64,000 nucleotides of DNA, from NCBI GenBank assembly GCA_004369045.1, contig ML213515.1:654818-718817 (forward strand). Reading direction: 5' to 3'. The translations under genes and the position numbers were made by a program. Source of the DNA: Heliocybe sulcata (Eukaryota > Basidiomycota > Agaricomycetes > Gloeophyllales > Gloeophyllaceae). The notes below the pieces were generated by a model. It worked only from the letters and a program-made list of their open reading frames with translations, ran no database searches and was not told the DNA's origin. Every line of letters begins with the position of its first letter. The first letter of the stretch is position 1. Shown here piece after piece: positions 26,036 to 64,000 of the stretch.

Positions 26036-26214
26036 GTCCACCACGCTATATTGGCGATGATATATCACTGAGAAAAATTCCAATACTTAATGGTGTATGG
26101 TACGACATGTGCGCGTCTTACCAACAGACTACGTGATTATGGTCAAATCAGTGTCGATTTAAGATAACCAGTAGCACTTCCTAGTTACCGAGTCACTCTC
26201 TGGCTCGAGGCCAC

Positions 26215-26520
26215 CCATTAATTGGGTGACGGTATTTGTGGCAGCGATGCCACGGTGGCACCGGAAGATGCCGTCCGGACAGGAAAACTGCCTCTGGTAA
26301 CGCGACCAATCCAACCCAGGTCTTCTTCTGTCCATGACTGAGTCGCCAGAAATGCAGATTTCATGAAGGCCGCAGACGAAAGCGCAACTCTTGCTACAGT
26401 CAAGGTACCCCGTGACACAGGACGTACTGAATCACCGTCGATCTGCAGATGCCACTTTCGCGTTTCGCGTTCTGCTTATTGGAGATGTTGCAAACGCCGC
26501 TGAATTTCAGTGAGCCACAA
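26215..26520 (-). repeat. Dispersed F-box upstream module (copy A)
   Basis: About 300 bp are clearly homologous, in the same order and orientation, to 63724-64000. The core palindrome GTGGCAGCGATGCCAC is at 26238-26253 and is followed by GGTGGCACCGGAAG. Shared text continues to GATCTGCAGATGCCACTT near 26440. It lies about 200 bp upstream of an F-box relic. Shorter versions occur at 33535-33600 and, inverted, at 42245-42300, each upstream of an F-box gene. It could be a promoter carried along by duplication. Confidence 0.75.
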
Positions 26521-29606: not shown

Positions 29607-30977
29607 CTAATGTAGGATTGACTTGAGAATATCGCCATCCTTGGGCCCAGTCCATTTCATAAAATGTCCACCGCTTTCAATGGTTGGGATGACCACGATG
29701 TTGAATCGACCAAGATAAACCTTGCCTTCCTCCTCAGGCCTGGTTCCGCGCATGCGTGACCGCAGCATTCTCTCGAGCGGGGCCTTGTGATGCTCACGCA
29801 CCCAATCAATTTCAATGTCTGTAAGCTTCGGCAAGAGAGCCTGGTGCGAGTCGCTTTCCGAAACGTACGTGAGATAGTCGCAGATGTCTGAGAAACCGGT
29901 CTCCTTTCCGCAGAAATCATCCTGAACGCCATCAATGTGGAGCCTTTCGAGACGGGGCATGGCAAGCAATAGCTCGCGGAACTGCTCTACGTCTCTAGCG
30001 AACGACGTCCAGAGTTCTGTCCTCAGCTCCCTCAGACGACAGTCCGAGTGCACGAGGAAACGCGTGAGGGCGGCTGCCGACGGTAAGTAGAAGGGATAGC
30101 CGATATCGATGTTGACAGGAACCAGACGTAGCTCCTGCAGGGATGGAACTAGGAAGAGGGCTAAGAAATCCTCCAAGTTCCGACCGTTTCGCTCAGGTAG
30201 TGCGCGAATTTCCAGAGCCCGCACAAGTGGCAGTTCGCTCGCAGGTCCCTCGTCGAGCGTAGCTTCTGCAATTGTCACCCGGCACTTGGTCAAGGAAGTA
30301 TACTGCGGTAATATATGTACAATTTCTCGCATGCAGGAGTAATCGCACCACTGCAGTTCCCGGAGCTGAGAACGCGGGAAGCGTATAGACTCGATTGTCC
30401 ATTCAATGTTGCCGCTGAGAGTTAGGTTCTGCAGGGACGGCGCATGCAATGGACAATCAAGGGGGTTGTATTCTTGCACGCGTCCCAGCTCGAGGGACTC
30501 TAGCATGGGACAGTGGAGACCTGAAAGCAGCGGAGACAGCCAGCCGTATTCTGCCTCAAGAGAGAGGAGGCGGCACTGCGATATAAAAGAGCGGAGAACA
30601 GGAACATAATTGTCCAGCTCGCTCGTCCGCGAGGCGTCGATGCCAAGCGACAAGGCGAGTGGCTGCGCGCCTGCGCGAGAAAACCATGATTGGAGTTTCT
30701 CGAACGCGCGTTGTGCTCGAGAGTTGGAGGGGTCGGAGGAGTCGCATTCGGGTACGCGTATCTGGAGTGAACACCAAAGCTCCGTGGTACTGATAGCGCA
30801 CTCCCTCCAGGACGCACACACCTGAGTTAGGAGAAGCGGGGCGTGACGAGGATCTGGTGTGATGAAGTTCGATTCTGTGTCCAATGACTGGAAGAAGATC
30901 TTGGACACCAACTCTGTGGGAATGGCTTGCGTGAAGGACCGCATAGTGTGCGTCGATCGAGTATCACTACGAACCAT
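29607..30977 (-). CDS. F-box protein (minus-strand array)
   Basis: Single exon, 456 aa. MVRSDTRSTHTMRSFTQAIP leads into TELVSKIFFQSLDTES and the block HAPLLLTQVCASWRECAIST with TELWCSLQI. The middle reads WLSPLLSGLHCPMLESLEL and the end WTGPKDGDILKSILH, shared with all members of the 29-45 kb array. A segment of about 240 bp (30601-30841) is nearly identical to the pseudogene at 32915-33154. The upstream 170 bp are repeated in inverted orientation before the gene at 40188. It is presumably an SCF substrate receptor. The frame is intact. Confidence 0.82.
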   Translation of the reverse strand: MVRSDTRSTHTMRSFTQAIPTELVSKIFFQSLDTESNFITPDPRHAPLLLTQVCASWRECAISTTELWCSLQIRVPECDSSDPSNSRAQRAFEKLQSWFSRAGAQPLALSLGIDASRTSELDNYVPVLRSFISQCRLLSLEAEYGWLSPLLSGLHCPMLESLELGRVQEYNPLDCPLHAPSLQNLTLSGNIEWTIESIRFPRSQLRELQWCDYSCMREIVHILPQYTSLTKCRVTIAEATLDEGPASELPLVRALEIRALPERNGRNLEDFLALFLVPSLQELRLVPVNIDIGYPFYLPSAAALTRFLVHSDCRLRELRTELWTSFARDVEQFRELLLAMPRLERLHIDGVQDDFCGKETGFSDICDYLTYVSESDSHQALLPKLTDIEIDWVREHHKAPLERMLRSRMRGTRPEEEGKVYLGRFNIVVIPTIESGGHFMKWTGPKDGDILKSILH

Positions 30978-31302: not shown

Positions 31303-31440
31303 TCTTTGCTAGAGACGTAGAGCAGTTCCGCAAGCTGCTGCTTGCTATGCCCCATCTCGAAAGGCTGCACATTGATGGCGTCCACGATGATTCATATGGA
31401 AAGGAGACCGGGTTCTCAGTTAGCCATGTCGAGGTCTCCT
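31303..31440 (+). pseudogene. Isolated F-box C-terminal fragment, plus strand
   Basis: A short piece encodes ARDVEQFRKLLLAMPHLERL followed by HIDGVHDDSYGKETGFS, the well-conserved three-quarter point of the array F-box proteins. It is in the opposite orientation to its neighbours and lacks all other gene parts. It stops shortly after. It is most likely a leftover of an inversion or of an ectopic recombination junction between array copies. The surrounding 31166-31937 otherwise holds duplicated 3'-flank sequence and no gene. Confidence 0.75.
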
Positions 31441-31937
31441 GAGCCAACACGCCCTGCCTCATGTTGCATGAGCATCTACCTTGGGAGCATTGCTTGGGTT
31501 CCAATCCCAAAGACCACCCGGATGGAACGGAAGTATACAAGAAGAATGCTGCGAAATATCAGCTATGTTGGCTTGAGAGGGTGGAGGAACCAGTTGGCAT
31601 AGAATGACGAGGAGTGAATAGCAAGTAACGTTCGCGGACGTGTGAATTAAGCCGGGACAATAATCGAATTTATGGTCACTAGACTGTGTCTGCACACTAA
31701 AAAGAAGGAATTACTACTGTCGATTGTCGAAAGTGCCAGCGAATATTGAGCTATGATATATGAGTGGTTGAATCCTCGCCGATGCGCGCGCTATACTACC
31801 CCGTGAGAAGAGACCTCGGCTTCCGCGAACGCGTAAAAACTGAAACACGCACGTGAAACAATGTGGCAGGCATAGGTCACGTTTCCGAAAGGTAATGAAC
31901 GCAGATACGCTGAGGTATTTGTGTCGTCCAAATATGT

Positions 31938-33250
31938 TCAATGTAGGAGCGACTTGATGATCTCGCCATCCTTGGGCCCAGTCCATTCCATACGGCGTCC
32001 AGCGCCTCCAGTAATGTGGAAGACCACGATGCGGAATCGACCAAGATAAACCTTCCCGTCCTCCGCAGCTCCAGTTGCGCGCATGCGAGACCGCAACATT
32101 CTCTTGATCGATGTCTCGTGATTGTCTTGCACCCGGCCAATTTCAAGGTCTGGAAGCTGCGGCAAGAGATCCTGGCGCGAATGGCCTGTCGAAGCATAGG
32201 TAAGATAGTCGCAGATGTCTGAGAACCCGGTCTTCTTTCCACAGAAATCATCGCTGACGCCATCAATGTGGAGCCTTTCGAGATGAGGCATAGCGAGCAG
32301 CAGCTCGCGGAGCTGCTCTACGTCTCTAGCGAAGGACATCCAAAGTTCTGTCCTCAGCTCCGTCAGGCGACAGTCCGAGTGCACAAGGAAACGCGTGAGG
32401 GCGGCTGCCGACGGTAAGTAGAAGGGATAGCTGCCACTGCTGTAGATAGGAACCAGACGTAGCTCCTGCAAGGATGGAACTAGGAAGAGGGCTAAGAAAT
32501 CCTCCAAATTACGACCATCTCGCTCATGTAGTGCGCGGATTTCCAGAGCTCGCAGGTACCTTTTCGAGCGTAACTTGTTCTGGAATTGACACGCAGCACT
32601 TGGTCAAGGAAGTATACTGCGGTAATATATGTAGGATTGTTCGCTCGATGGAGTAATCGCACCACTGCAACTCCCGGAGCTGGAAACGCCGGAAGCATAT
32701 AGAGTCGATTGTCCAGTCGATGTTGCCGGTGAGAGATAGTGTCTGCAGAGATGGCACGTGCAATGGACGATCAAGGGGTTTATATTGTTGCGCGTGTACC
32801 AGTTCTAGGGACTCTAGCATGGGACAGTGGAGACCTGAAAGCAGCGGAGACAGCCAGCCGTATCTTGCATCGAGAGAGAAGATGCGACACCGCGATATAA
32901 AAGAGCGGCGAACAGGAACATAATTGTCCAGCTCGCTCGTCCGCGAGGCGTCGATGCCAAGCGACAAGGCGAGTGGCTGCGCGCCTGCGCGAGAAAACCA
33001 TGATTGGAGTTTCTCGAACGCGCGTTGTGCTCGAGAGTTGGAGGGGTCGGAGGAGTCGCATTCGGGTACGCGTATCTGGAGTGAACACCAAAGCTCCGTA
33101 GTACTGATAGCGCACTCCCTCCAGGACGCACACACCTGAGTTAGGAGAAGCGGGGCATGGCGAGGATCTGGTGTGATGAAGTCGGACTTTGCATCCAGGC
33201 AGTGAGTGGACGAAGATCTTGGACACCAGCTCCGTTGGAATGGTTTGCAT
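31938..33250 (-). pseudogene. Broken F-box gene (mosaic)
   Basis: The full length of an array F-box gene is present but split into three frames. After the start (MQTIPTELVSKIFVHSL) a tandem AGTGAGTG at 33201-33208 (CACT doubled on the coding strand) shifts the frame. The second frame then runs through the F-box end and leucine-rich part (ITPDPRHAPLLLTQVCASWR). At about 32548-32555 a 20-base loss between two copies of CTGCGAGC, compared with the gene at 43391, shifts it again. The last frame (31938-32507) is intact to WTGPKDGEIIKSLLH. Its 5' half is nearly identical to the gene at 29607-30977 and its 3' end to that at 40188-41585. It lies 960 bp upstream of the former. Confidence 0.85.
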
Positions 33251-33981
33251 GGTATCAACGACCACGTAGTATTCGACAATTGGATATCGCTGAGAAACGT
33301 TCCGGTAGTTGATGGTTTATACTGCGAGTGGTGGAAAATGTGTGCACCTCACAGGCTAGTTGACAATAAGCCCTAAGCTAGTCGCCGAATCACTCTGAAT
33401 CGTACCTGCTGGACCCGTGCAACCAGGCTACGTTGAGTGTCAAACAGAGCAGTAGTACCTCAGCAGTGGATACTGTGGCTATTCGTCAGGAATAAACGGA
33501 TTTCACTTGGAGAACTAGGAGTGCAGAGAACCTAAGCGCTGAGTATTTGAGGCAGCAGTGGCATCGGACAATGCCGTCCGGCTGCTCTGCTAACGCGGGC
33601 CTATGGAGCACAAAGGTACCGTTTCAGCAGTACTAGACTTATGTTGACCCAAAGCCACTGTTCTCTCAGTATACTCTACACTTCAAAGCAATGCGTCTCA
33701 ATGTTAAACAGAATCACAAGGACCCTTTAATGTAAGTCTAGCCCGAGAACTTCGGACTCGAGCAGGAAACCTCTGCTGTTTACATCCGTTGAAGCACGAT
33801 GCCTAGTGAAAAGAGGAATTACTATTATCATGTATCGCGAGCACCAGCCTGCGAAGTATGTACCGTCATAACCATGGTTGAAGCCGCGTGCGAACTGAAA
33901 GACCCCCGTGAAAGAAACCCGCCAGCTTGGGATCTCCAATGGACGCAGACGCGGTGAAAGGTGTTACGGCCGACCAAATCT
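33251..33981. other. F-box upstream region, no gene
   Basis: It is homologous in inverted orientation to the region upstream of the gene at 43391 (about 42240-43390), without the transposon found there. A degenerate copy of the GGCAGCAGTGGCA module is at 33550-33575. Sequence after 33720 matches, inverted, the 3' flank of the gene at 40188. No gene is seen. Confidence 0.7.
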
Positions 33982-40187: not shown

Positions 40188-41585
40188 ATGATTTGTAGTG
40201 ATACTCGATCGGCGCACACTATGCAGTCCTTAACGCAAACCATTCCCACAGAGTTGGTATCCAAGATCTTTGTGCACTGCTTGGACACAGAATCCAACTT
40301 CATCACGCCAGACCCTTGCCATGCCCCACTTCTTCTTACCCAGGTGTGTGCGTCCTGGAGGGAGTGCGCTGTCAATACCACGGAGCTTTGGTGTTCCCTC
40401 CGGGTACGCATCCCTTATCGTGCCGATTGCGACGACTCCTCCGAATCCTCTGACTCCTCCGACTCCTCCAACCCACGAGCACAGCGCGCGGTTGCTCATC
40501 TCCAGTCATGGCTTTCTCGCGCAGGCGAGCAGCCACTCGCCTTGTCGCTTTTCTTCGACGCCTCGTATACGAGCGAGCTGGACAATTGTGTTCCTGTTCT
40601 TCGCTCTTTTATATCGCAGTGTCGCATCCTCTCTCTGGAGGAAGGATATGGCTGGCTGTCTCCGCTGCTTTCAGGTCTCCACTGTCCCATGCTAGAGTCC
40701 CTAGAACTGGTACACGTGCAACAATATAAGCCCCTTGATAGTCCATTGCGCACCCCATCTCTACAGAGGCTATCTCTCAGTGGCAGCATCGAATGGACAA
40801 TCGATTCTATACGCTTCCCGCGTTCTCAGCTCCGGGAGCTGCACTGGTGCGATTACTCCAGCATGCGAGAAATCCTTCATATATTACCGCAGTATACTTC
40901 CTTGACCAAGTGCCGGGTGACACTTGCAGAAGCTACGCCTGACCAGGGACTTGCGAGCGAACTGCCTCTTCTGCGGGCTCTGGAAATCGACGCACTACCT
41001 GAGCGAGATGGTCGGAAGTTCGATGATTTTTTGGGCCTCTTCATAGTGCCATCCTTGCAGGAGCTGCGTCTGGTTCCTGTCAACATCGATGTCGGCTATC
41101 CCTTCTACTTACCGTCGGCAGCCGCCCTCACGCGTTTCCTCGTGCGCTCGGACTGTCGCCTGACGGAGCTCTGGATAGAACTTTGGATGTCCTTCGCTAG
41201 AGACGTAGAGCAGTTCCGCGAGCTGCTGCTTGCCATGCCCCATCTCGAAAGGCTCCATATTGATGGCGTCAACGATGATTTCTGTGGAAAGAAGACCGGG
41301 TTTTCAGACATCTGCGACTATCTTACCTATGCTCCGACGGGCCGTTCGCGCCAGGCTCTCTTGCCGCAGCTTACAGACCTTGAAATTGGCCGGGTCCGTG
41401 ACCATCACGAGACAGCGCTCGAGAGAATGTTGCGGTCACGCATGCGCGCAACTGGAGCTGCGGAGGACGGGAAGGTTTATCTTGGTCGATTCCGCATCGT
41501 GGTCTTCCACATTACTGGAGGCGCTGGACGCCGTATGGAATGGACTGGGCCCAAGGATGGCGAGATCCTCAAAACAATCCTATGA
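40188..41585 (+). CDS. F-box protein (plus-strand array, member 1)
   Basis: Single exon, 465 aa. MICSDTRSAHTMQSLTQTIP leads into TELVSKIFVHCLDTESNFIT and TQVCASWRECAVNTTELWCS. It aligns end to end with the gene at 29607-30977, which is inverted 9 kb away. A short expansion of TCC/GAC codons near 40433-40472 encodes DDSSESSDSSDSSN, absent or shorter in relatives, and probably arose by slippage. The leucine-rich region and the end WTGPKDGEILKTIL are typical. It is expected to act as an SCF substrate receptor. The last 170 bp are nearly identical to the pseudogene at 31938. Confidence 0.83.
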   Translation: MICSDTRSAHTMQSLTQTIPTELVSKIFVHCLDTESNFITPDPCHAPLLLTQVCASWRECAVNTTELWCSLRVRIPYRADCDDSSESSDSSDSSNPRAQRAVAHLQSWLSRAGEQPLALSLFFDASYTSELDNCVPVLRSFISQCRILSLEEGYGWLSPLLSGLHCPMLESLELVHVQQYKPLDSPLRTPSLQRLSLSGSIEWTIDSIRFPRSQLRELHWCDYSSMREILHILPQYTSLTKCRVTLAEATPDQGLASELPLLRALEIDALPERDGRKFDDFLGLFIVPSLQELRLVPVNIDVGYPFYLPSAAALTRFLVRSDCRLTELWIELWMSFARDVEQFRELLLAMPHLERLHIDGVNDDFCGKKTGFSDICDYLTYAPTGRSRQALLPQLTDLEIGRVRDHHETALERMLRSRMRATGAAEDGKVYLGRFRIVVFHITGGAGRRMEWTGPKDGEILKTIL

Positions 41586-42347
41586 TAGAGATCTGGACGG
41601 CCAAAACACCTTTCAGCACGTACACGTCCATTAGAGATCCAGTCCTTTTAGAGAGCATGTTCTAGGCCGGCGAGTTTGGTTCACGGCCGTTTTTCAGTTT
41701 GTGCGCGGCTTCAACCAGGGTTATGACGGCACATACTTCGTAGGCTGGCACTTGCGATACATGATGATAGTGATTCCTCTTTTTACTAGGCACGTGAGTC
41801 GGTGCGTATTTTCGCTGCTCTTCGTCGCATGTAAACAGAGAGCGTTTTCCTGCCCGAGTCCGAACTCCTGTGCGAGGGTTTAGATACTAGCTGTTCATGA
41901 TCATGCCTAAAGTCGGGACAGAGTTACAATAAAGTCGTCTGGGTGATTCTGGTCGAGATTTCGGAGGCGATAAACCATCCTAGGAGAGCAGTAATGTATG
42001 TGGATTAGACGTAAGTATAATACTGCTGAAACGGGTTTCCTCGTAGCTTTGTGCTCCATAGGTAGGCGGAAGTGGTCGTCTGTGCTACCAGTAAAGACCA
42101 GGTGCGAGACCACTTCCACGTCCTTAAATCTAGCGCTATGACGTATTCTGGCTTCATTAGTACTAGTAACTACCCGTTCGTATTCTACGGTCCTGTAAAG
42201 GTCTGTGCAATGAGAAAGTCTGTGCGAGAAAGTCTGTGCAATGCATTAATGAGAGCCCGACGGCATCTTCCGGTGCCACTGCTGCCACAAATACTCAGCC
42301 ACACCGTACTGGGCGCGCTAGTTGTCTGATCGGATTATTCCTGCATA
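41586..42347. other. Intergenic, duplicated F-box flank
   Basis: 41640-41880 matches, inverted, the 33727-33960 region (shared block reading TTGTGCGCGGCTTCAACCAG-like sequence and GATAGTGATTCCTCTTTTTA). 42245-42300 is a shortened inverted copy of the F-box upstream module. No gene is seen. Confidence 0.65.
42201..42243. repeat. Short tandem repeat of GTCTGTGC units
   Basis: Three units beginning GTCTGTGC and separated by (A)ATGAGAAA or GAGAAA follow each other directly. The block lies just before the F-box upstream module. Confidence 0.75.
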
Positions 42348-43135
42348 CAGTCATCAACCGCTCCTTTACACACAACTACTCGTTTACACACTTCGTTCCC
42401 ATTGCTCCCCCGTAAGCTTTGATGCCCGGATTTTTTCCAATAATATATCTATGGTCCCTGTGCACTATATACAAAACATTTTATTGGGTTTGAATCTGTA
42501 GCTCGGAAATGAGAGCCTGATCAATGCAAGCCCCAGACCAGTCAAAGAAACTTGAGAGAAGTCTAGCTCAGACAAATGAAAAGTTGGTAACTTACTTATA
42601 CCTGCAGAATATGAGTACCATTCTCAGCATTATTTTTGATATAGGGAGCCAGTCGAACGGGGCAACACTCGTTGAGTTATGGCCAAAATACGGTCAAATG
42701 GTGGGCCACTGTGGCGGCAAGTCATCCGAATAAGGCAGGTGCATGCCACGTGATGCCTGCGCACCCACAATGCGCAGAAGAGAACTGACCCTCGCTGCTC
42801 TTAGAAATACATTTGCTAAGACCACTGTATCTTGTAAAACTCATACATGTCAGTTTAGAAGATCAAAATGAGTTGGGCGAGGCAGAATGCGATGAAAAAT
42901 CAGCACGTCACGCCCGTGACATGACTGTGTAAAGGACGCGTGTTCACGCGAATAGTCCATCCGAAACGTTTGCTTTCTATCACGACAAGTTCATGACATT
43001 TCGGGCTCAAATTTTGTGTAAACATACATAGTACATATGTGAATTATCTTGTGGCAAAAAAATCAGTTTGTAACCCTTACATTAATGACAGGAGATTAAT
43101 GGAAATTCGGCGTGTAAAGGAGCGGTTGATGACTG
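42348..43135. mobile_element. Non-autonomous Tc1/mariner-like DNA transposon (MITE-like, 788 bp)
   Basis: Perfect 24-bp terminal inverted repeats begin CAGTCATCAACCGC on the left (42348-42371) and end GCGGTTGATGACTG on the right (43112-43135). TA lies directly outside both ends (42346-42347 and 43136-43137), as expected for a duplicated TA target. CAGT-type ends and TA duplication are typical of the Tc1/mariner group. There is no transposase frame; the interior is AT-richer than the surroundings. The element splits the upstream region of the F-box gene at 43391. The paralogous upstream region at 33440-33500 carries the same flanks (TTATTCCTG...CCACAGT) without it. Confidence 0.85.
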
Positions 43136-43390
43136 TACCACAGTGGAGTCCACTGCTGCAGTACTACTGCCTGTGCCATCACTCAACGCAACCTGCTTTC
43201 AGAGATCCAGCAGGTACGAGTCAGCGTGATTCGGCGACCAGCTTAAGGCTTACTGATCATTTCAGCTGTAAGCGCGGAGCCCGCTAGTGAAGCGCACACG
43301 TTCCCCATCGAACTCGCAGTATAGATCATCAACTACCGGGACATTTCTCAGCGGTATTCAATTGTCAAATACTACGTGGTCGTTTATACC

Positions 43391-44719
43391 ATGCAAACTA
43401 TTCCAGCGGAGCTGGTGTCCAAGATCTTCGTCCACTGCCTGGATACAGAGTCCGACTTCATCACACCAAACCCTCACCATGCCCCCCTTCTTCTTACCCA
43501 AGTGTGCGCATCATGGAGGGAGCGCGCCATCAATTCGACGGAGCTATGGTGCTCCCTCCACGTCAGCGTGCGTGATTGCGCAGACTCTTCCGAGCTCCGA
43601 GCACAGCGTGCGGTCGCCCTTCTCCAGTCATGGCTTTCTCGCGCGGGCGCGCACCCGCTCGCTCTGTCCATGCGCCTCGAATACCGGAAGAAGAGCGAGC
43701 TGAGCAATTATGTTCCTCTCCTCCGCTCTTTTATACCGCAGTGCCGCATTTTGTCTCTCGGTGCAATATGCGACTGGCTACCTCCTCTGCTTTCAGGTCT
43801 TCACTGTCCCATGCTAGAGTCCCTCGAATTGCGAAACGTGACCGAAGCTTACCCCTTTGATTCTCCATTGCACGCACCATCCCTGCAGAGGCTACGGCTC
43901 AGCGGCAACATCGAATGGACAATCGAGTCTATACGCTTCCCGCGTTCTCAGCTCCGAGAATTGCAGTGGTCCTATTACTTTCGCAAGCGAGAAATCCTAC
44001 ATATATTACCGCAGTATACCTCCTTGGCCAAGTGCCGCGTGACAATCCCGAGAGAAGTTACGCTTGACAAGGTACCTGCGAGCGAACTGCCACTTCTGCG
44101 AGCTCTGGAAGTCAACGCACTACATGAGCGAGACGGTCGTAACTTCGCCAAATTTTTGGCCCTCTTCCTAGCTCCATCCTTGCAGGAGCTGCGTCTGGTT
44201 CCTACCAACCTCGATGTCGGCTTCTCCTTCTGCTTACCGTCGGCAGCCTCTCTCAGGCGTTTCCTTGTGCGCTCGGACTGTCGTCTGACGGAGCTGAGGA
44301 CAGAACTTTGGCTGTCCTTCGCTAGAGACGTAGAGCAGTTTCGCGAGCTGCTGCTCGCCATGCTCCATCTCGAAAGGCTGCACATTGATGGCGTCAACGA
44401 TCACTTCTGTAGAGAGAAGACCGGTTTCTCAGACATCTGCGACTATCTCGCCTATGCTCCGACAGGCGAATCACAGCAGACTCTCTTGCCGCAGCTTACA
44501 GACTTCACAATTAACGGGGTGGCTGATCGTCATGACATGTCGCTCGACAGAATGCTGCGGTCGCGGATCCGGGGCACCGCATCTGCGCAGGACGGAAGGG
44601 TTTATCTTGGCCGATTTTACATACTAGTCGTCCCATCCAGTAGTCTCGCTGACCGTATGGAATGGACCGGGCCCAAGGACGGCGACATTCTTAAAAGTAG
44701 GCAGATGGAACACCTATAA
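43391..44719 (+). CDS. F-box protein (plus-strand array, member 2)
   Basis: Single exon, 442 aa from the first ATG (MQTIPAELVSKIFVHCLDTE); the frame is open upstream but without an ATG. Then APLLLTQVCASWRERAINST with ELWCSLHV, WLPPLLSGLHCPMLESLELR, LTELRTELWLSFARDVEQFR and a slightly altered end (WTGPKDGDILKSRQMEHL) that differs from the usual KSILH. The upstream region is shared with the pseudogene at 31938-33250 but is interrupted by the transposon at 42348-43135, leaving about 250 bp of original promoter next to the gene. It is a likely SCF substrate receptor. Confidence 0.83.
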   Translation: MQTIPAELVSKIFVHCLDTESDFITPNPHHAPLLLTQVCASWRERAINSTELWCSLHVSVRDCADSSELRAQRAVALLQSWLSRAGAHPLALSMRLEYRKKSELSNYVPLLRSFIPQCRILSLGAICDWLPPLLSGLHCPMLESLELRNVTEAYPFDSPLHAPSLQRLRLSGNIEWTIESIRFPRSQLRELQWSYYFRKREILHILPQYTSLAKCRVTIPREVTLDKVPASELPLLRALEVNALHERDGRNFAKFLALFLAPSLQELRLVPTNLDVGFSFCLPSAASLRRFLVRSDCRLTELRTELWLSFARDVEQFRELLLAMLHLERLHIDGVNDHFCREKTGFSDICDYLAYAPTGESQQTLLPQLTDFTINGVADRHDMSLDRMLRSRIRGTASAQDGRVYLGRFYILVVPSSSLADRMEWTGPKDGDILKSRQMEHL

Positions 44720-62699: not shown

Positions 62700-63492
62700 T
62701 CTAATTTCCTGCAGGCAAGAGTTCGACGCCAATGCTGGGACCCGGAAGGCGGTCAAGAAGTCGGCCATGTCTGTAATTTCTACATGATGGCCAAAGTGGA
62801 TTTTTGAAAACTCCAGACACGGTGGCACATCGATCTCAAGCACCTTCATGGGAGTGATGTGCGTCGGAGCTGTTGCAGAGCACCATGTCGATGGAATACT
62901 GTGGTAACACATCTAAAATTACTATCGAGTGCCGCAGAGGTCGGCCCACTGAGAAGGCGGGAAACATAATACAGTGCCGGACCAGGCTTAAGCTTTGCAG
63001 GAGTGGTACCTGCAGCAGCGAATCCGAGGGATAGGTTTGAGAGTCTACGCATTGTAATGAGACATTCCAACATAGCGATACCCAGCCGAGACGCATCGAG
63101 AGAGAGAGAACGCGGCACTGCGGGTATGAAATAACGTAGCGCAGAGGCGCAGTCGCTGGGATAGCCGTTGTACAGCATCAAAAAGCAAATCGACAAGGAT
63201 AGAGGCCGTGTCCCCGAGCGAGGTAGCCATAGCTCCAGAAGAGAAACTTACGACGGCATGTCCAGCGGGTGAAAACGATTGTCCTCGGGGTGTTCCTGCT
63301 CGACGGAATGCACGTCAACATGTAGTGAGCACTAAATCAGGGTCGTAGCAATGGCGCACTCCCTCCAGCATTGGCAGACCAGGGTGCGGAGAAGCGGAGC
63401 CAGGCGAGAATCGGGTACAATGAACTTGGGCTTTGTGTCCAGACAGCGCATATGAAGATCCTGGAAACCAGCTCTGTGGGAATGATTTGCAT
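62700..63492 (-). pseudogene. Truncated, frameshifted F-box gene
   Basis: The ATG at 63492 opens MQIIPTELVSRIFI, then the frame shifts within the F-box. The next pieces (CLDTKPKFIVPDSRLAPLLR, LVCQCWREC) are in another frame. Later fragments VILDVLPQYS and ADFLTAFRVPAL...CLQEI correspond to ILPQYTSL and FLALFLVPSLQEL of intact genes. The C-terminal third is missing. It lies directly upstream of the epimerase gene in the same orientation. Its upstream module (63724-64000) is the partner of 26215-26520. Confidence 0.75.
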
Positions 63493-63723
63493 GAACGACC
63501 ACGTAGTATCGTAGGATCGAATATCGCTGAGGGACATCCCGGTGGTTAATGGCTTATGCTGTAAGTGCCGTCACCCTTGAAGGCAGGCTGTGTTGAACGA
63601 TGGCACCTGGCAAGCAAGTAGTGGAACCAGCAGCACTGGGCATATGGCAATTATGAAGGTAACAACGAACCAGTCTCACTTGAAGCACCAACAATGAATG
63701 CAGACGACAATGGGCGTCGTCCC

Positions 63724-64000
63724 GTTCAGTTAACTGATTCTTTGTGGCGGATTTGTGGCAGCAATGCCACGGTGGCACCGGAAGTTGCCGTCTGGCTGGA
63801 AAACTGCCAGTGTCCACCGCAGAGTTTTCTTCCTTCTTCTGTCGATGACTGAGTCGTCAGAAACACAGACTTCACCAGGGCTGTAGACGAGAACGCAGCT
63901 GCTACTGCGTTCACGATACCTTCTGGTGCGGGATCGATCGTACCACCGTCGATCTGCAGATGCCACTTACGCGTTAGAGATGTCGCAAATGCGCTGCATT
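63724..64000 (-). repeat. Dispersed F-box upstream module (copy B), cut by window end
   Basis: Homologous to 26215-26520 in the same orientation. The core palindrome is GTGGCAGCAATGCCAC at 63755-63770, followed by GGTGGCACCGGAAG. Shared text near 63950 reads TCGATCTGCAGATGCCACTT. It lies about 230 bp upstream of the F-box relic start. It continues beyond the window. Confidence 0.75.

Follow-up and report, generated by a model that had tools for sequence, protein, structure and literature searches.

Members of the Tc1/mariner superfamily typically have terminal inverted repeats of 12–28 nt and a TA target site, according to PMC4054914. The same paper describes PpTc1 and PpTc2, Tc1-like elements of a moss, which have CAGT...ACTG ends flanked by TA and contain DD34E transposase frames. 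The mimp elements of Fusarium are related to impala, a Tc1/mariner element. They are non-coding, have ends that begin with CAGT, and lie upstream of genes. PMC3599309 gives them a length of 200–220 bp and inverted repeats of ~27 bp; their end pattern is CAGTGGG.GCAA[TA]AA. In isolate N11A of the mushroom Marasmius oreades, a Mariner-type element without protein domains (similar to MarorTcMar-18) was observed as a new insertion; it is 1,120 bp long and has many copies (PMC9674265). The term MITE is used for elements under 500 bp in PMC5579170.

The element examined here lies in a 64-kb window, the whole stretch of Heliocybe sulcata DNA that was analysed. It shares its CAGT...ACTG ends and TA flanks with PpTc1 and PpTc2, but no transposase frame was found in it. 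Like the mimps it is non-coding, has inverted repeats of similar length (24 bp), begins with CAGT and lies upstream of a gene, but it is 788 bp long and its end reads CAGTCATCAACCGC. The likeness to the Marasmius element, which is longer and has many copies, is one of description; the new insertion of that element gives the mobility of a domain-less fungal element a precedent. The flanking TA, the length of the ends and their CAGT...ACTG tips match the description in PMC4054914, and we would therefore place the element in the Tc1/mariner superfamily. This placement is drawn from the ends and the target site, and the family within the superfamily is left unassigned. A transposase within the element is expected only of autonomous members, and since it is absent the element would be at most a non-autonomous derivative. 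Because 788 bp exceeds the MITE limit, we felt that "non-autonomous element" was the safer name. The element is single copy within the window, while the high copy number expected of MITEs concerns the genome.

The two arms (42346–42371 and 43112–43137) are 26 nt long including the TA and are 100% complementary, giving terminal inverted repeats of 24 bp each with a 100% match. Among inverted repeats with arms at most 5 kb apart, these arms form the longest perfect one in the window. In 20 order-1 Markov sequences matched to the window in composition, the longest such repeats measured 13–15. The runner-up was a 24-nt repeat at 29976/31308, among repeated F-box-like paralogues. The GC content is 43%, compared with 53% for the window. 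The longest stop-to-stop frame in the element is 70 codons, and 0/6 frames matched Pfam at E up to 10 (stops given as X), so that no relic of a transposase was detected in that search. An earlier note had described a TA-flanked 788-bp element with perfect 24-bp ends and no transposase, and both statements are borne out, the ends lying far beyond what 20 random sequences produced.

Other scans added little. The DNA fold of the element had z = −3.28 relative to 20 shuffles, which is not independent evidence because the perfect arms are paired in the fold. No Rfam match was obtained in the window at gathering scores, and Tandem Repeats Finder reported no repeat in 42300–43200. A bacterial promoter scan found 3 promoters (1.9 expected) and 1 terminator (0.9 expected), and is uninformative for a eukaryote.

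Table 1. Coordinates of the element, its parts, the downstream gene and the insert-free upstream regions.
Feature	Position	Strand	Evidence or remark
Left TA target-site copy	42346..42347	.	sequence, inverted-repeat arms
Left terminal inverted repeat, 24 bp	42348..42371	+	
Non-autonomous TIR element, non-coding, 788 bp (TA excluded)	42348..43135	.	no long frame, no Pfam match
Two tandem 18-mers at left end, 15/18 identical, each ending TTTACACA	42355..42390	+	
Internal GTGTAAAGGA	42927..42936	+	same orientation as right end
Internal GTGTAAAC	43016..43023	+	same orientation as right end
Right terminal inverted repeat, 24 bp	43112..43135	-	
Right TA target-site copy	43136..43137	.	sequence, inverted-repeat arms
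Intact ORF of F-box-like gene downstream of element	43391..44719	+	
Insert-free paralogous region upstream of the 33250 pseudogene	33205..33583	-	BLAST, alignment
TA of empty paralogous site	33480..33481	-	
Second upstream region without insert, both anchors found	63491..63797	-	
Third upstream region without insert, left anchor strong, right marginal	26040..26278	-	

The region upstream of the 33250 pseudogene was compared with the flanks of the element. The flanks were joined with one TA kept, and the resulting 122 bases were aligned to the minus strand of 33400–33580. The joined flanks scored 64 across the junction (best of 2000 shuffles, 31), and the outermost 60 bp at either end of the element scored only 16 and 11 against the same upstream region. 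The local alignment at the junction is TTATTCCTG-C--ATA-CCACAGT in the filled copy and TTATTCCTGACGAATAGCCACAGT in the paralogue at 33 kb. ATA is kept, with a single TA at the empty site, and the paralogue has 4 extra nucleotides. Three further nucleotides are missing just right of the junction in the alignment of the filled-copy flanks with this paralogue. The alignment of the two F-box upstream regions that the earlier note had proposed thus runs across the junction, and the empty site it had claimed at this pseudogene does align. In view of the 4 extra nucleotides, however, it is the shared flank that is right, while the junction is not base-exact.

The two arms of the junction contribute unequally. 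The right arm alone scored 51 against the 33 kb paralogue (shuffles, at most 29), while the left arm alone scored 24, within the range of shuffles (maximum 27 of 1000). Homology near the junction therefore comes mainly from the right arm together with a 46-bp block that stops 48 bp short of the element on its left side and is 89% identical to the paralogue, in correct order and orientation. Farther left, 42009–42062, 41820–41864 and 41426–41796 are collinear with 33644–33600, 33794–33751 and 34144–33795, respectively. Between these blocks and the element, 42063–42253 (~190 bases) has no counterpart block and faces 16 bases in the paralogue, so the flanks differ by other indels besides the element. 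This is a second, smaller length difference, just left of the element; within the segment, the short repeat GAGAAAGTCTGTGC occurs three times (42195–42239).

Upstream regions of five paralogues were tested for the insert. The left anchor, 42254–42292, is common to the regions upstream of the F-box-like sequences at 63 kb and 26 kb. At 63 kb it was found at 63797–63751 with a score of 49, and at 26 kb at 26278–26234 with a score of 47; the highest score among 300 shuffles was 23 for each. The right anchor was clear at 63551–63491 (52, shuffles 28) and marginal at 26075–26040 (23, shuffles 22). The anchors are ~200 bases apart at 63 kb and ~160 bases apart at 26 kb, too few to accommodate a 788-bp element. 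The insert is therefore absent from 3/3 upstream regions in which the left anchor is present. Neither anchor was found upstream of the genes at 40188 and 29607, which are uninformative on the insertion. By eye, each of the regions at 26 kb and 63 kb is followed by a broken-looking F-box-like start. Still further upstream, a 143-nt stretch with 75% identity is common to 26322–26464 and 63833–63975.

Dating the insertion is complicated by the history of the 33250 pseudogene (31930–33300, minus strand), which is a mosaic: its promoter and first 100 columns most resemble the filled copy, whereas its body resembles other paralogues. Compared with the 43391 copy in four 100-column blocks down to the ATG, it shows identities of 0.73, 0.61, 0.79 and 0.86. 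After the ATG the identity is 0.92 in the first 100 columns and then 0.68–0.77 from +100 to +400, where the pseudogene is 0.99–1.0 identical to the 29607–30977 copy. Near its 3' end (+1100 to +1400) it matches the 40188 copy at 0.92–0.95. The bodies of the genes and their promoter blocks thus differ in history, presumably through recombination or conversion between neighbours, and the 43391 and 33250 promoter blocks may themselves have moved by recombination. Owing to this mosaic structure the insertion is dated against the promoter blocks, not against "the F-box duplication". Judged from the alignments, it took place after the 43391 and 33250 promoter blocks had separated. The earlier claim of an insertion after the F-box duplication was too simple.

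Taken with the ends, flanks and insert-free sites, the element is very probably a non-autonomous cut-and-paste DNA transposon of the Tc1/mariner type that inserted after the promoter blocks split. Its transposase, of the DDE/D type, would be supplied in trans from another place in the genome and would bind the 24-bp ends, and perhaps also the repeated GTGTAAA boxes. After excision, this enzyme would integrate the element into a TA and thereby duplicate that TA.

Other copies of the element were sought in the window. With 3 mismatches allowed, the 24-bp end has two occurrences. The next-best site has 7 mismatches, which is the random level (7, 7, 8, 7 and 7 in five sequences). BLAST of the element against the window returned no match apart from the element and its ends. 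The window contains 6 inverted pairs flanked by TA (14 bp, at most 2 mismatches, within 3 kb), compared with 2, 1 and 1 in three random sequences; they comprise the element and 5 pairs among inverted F-box-like repeats at 29.9–34.4 kb. The exact 24-mer had 0 occurrences in IMG/VR and 0 in the GTDB genomes, zeros that carry little weight because these collections are viral and prokaryotic. A match in IMG/VR (L001) to an 18-base piece was taken as chance, the similarity stopping right after the 18 bases. Among the literature matches listed, no title or abstract opening described the element, which is not proof of its being unpublished. As a text string, CAGTCATCAACC matched three listed papers, on the DNA of ginseng, genes of spinach and E. 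coli from swine. No end sequences for comparison were obtained from PMC7325037.

The empty paralogues could instead have lost an ancestral insertion by excision. Cut-and-paste elements do excise, and the extra nucleotides at 33 kb (ACGAATAG versus CATA) are readable as a scar. The usual Tc1/mariner footprint is CAG or CTG between two TAs, however, and the extra bases at 33 kb keep neither. In the pairwise identities of a six-way alignment, the upstream regions at 63 kb (0.52) and 26 kb (0.49) are more diverged from the filled copy than that at 33 kb (0.75). With these more diverged regions and all three informative regions empty, a single gain in the 43391 copy is simpler, and we regard loss by excision as improbable. 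Little credence was likewise given to an origin in another superfamily, or to an unrelated large inverted repeat that came to lie between TAs by chance. The class was assigned from ends and target site, with neither a transposase nor a second copy in the window to draw on, but the perfect ends coincide both with the TA repeat and with the insert-free point of the paralogue, and by eye the flanks contain no duplication longer than TA. A Tc1/mariner-type insertion into the 43391 promoter block is therefore the reading that we prefer.

The position of the insertion bears on whether it was co-opted into the promoter of the 43391 gene. Counting its TA, the element stops 253 bp upstream of that gene's ATG. 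Among the four genes with the upstream block, only the insert-bearing one is full-length open (442 codons); the 33 kb pseudogene has open pieces of at most 251 codons, and the starts at 63 kb and 26 kb look broken by eye. One case in four is of little weight, however. In the closest parallel found, in Fusarium oxysporum, mimps were judged from promoter deletions to be dispensable for effector-gene expression, although SIX5 expression was lost in one deletion that covered a mimp plus other sequence (PMC3599309). We consider co-option very unlikely, and the element probably has little or no regulatory role. The earlier note had placed the element about 250 bp upstream of an intact F-box gene, and the distance and the open frame agree with this; the F-box name is weaker. 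The open frame shares 73% identity with the long paralogue at 40188 and 70% with that at 29607. With E limited to 0.001, no Pfam F-box was found in the 43391, 40188 or 29607 proteins. When the limit was raised to 10, PF12937 (F-box-like) matched 6/7 paralogues (best E, 5.3e-05), with no match in the 43391 protein itself. Homology within the family thus lends the name of this gene tentative support.

The ends of the element differ in their tandem repeats. The tandem 18-mers at the left end occupy 42355–42372 and 42373–42390, while the right end reaches only 9/18. A 15/18 tandem match was seen in 0/2000 random sequences and in 0/659 sampled 60-base pieces of the window. The left-end double 18-mer is a candidate double transposase-binding site. 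The GTGTAAA core has 5 copies in the element, compared with 9 in the whole window on both strands. By element position, TTTACAC occurs at 18 and 36 on the left, and GTGTAAA at 580, 669 and 765 towards the right. Three interior copies of any of 18 end 7-mers were obtained in 21/5000 random sequences, and three copies of some end 7-mer in 4/168 real 740-bp pieces of the window; some 7-mer reached at least 4 copies in 255/2000 random sequences. With this moderate excess over the controls the boxes are suggestive, no more; they would fit putative transposase-binding sites.

A bolder account would have the element found an undescribed fungal Tc1/mariner family with unlike ends, with a double 18-bp site on the left and a single site plus two distant boxes on the right, and would have it give the promoter group's only surviving gene a new regulatory region. 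We think this improbable. The element is a cleanly bounded non-autonomous transposon insertion of a familiar, ordinary type, and it answers none of the long-standing questions. As a well-bounded insertion with an empty site in neighbouring paralogues, it is of use in defining the ends and the target site of its transposon family, as well as the family's relative age, and the locus allows a promoter that carries an insert to be compared with natural counterparts that lack it.

Two minor observations were made. Inside the element, at 42921–42936, the sequence that forms the outer tip of the right end (ATGACTG) abuts TGTAAAGGA, the inner part of an end; this could be the relic of a second end, with chance as the alternative. 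At 31304–31419, between the 29607–30977 gene and the 33250 pseudogene, there is a 116-nt F-box-like coding piece in the orientation opposite to both neighbours, which is 84–91% like five other copies.
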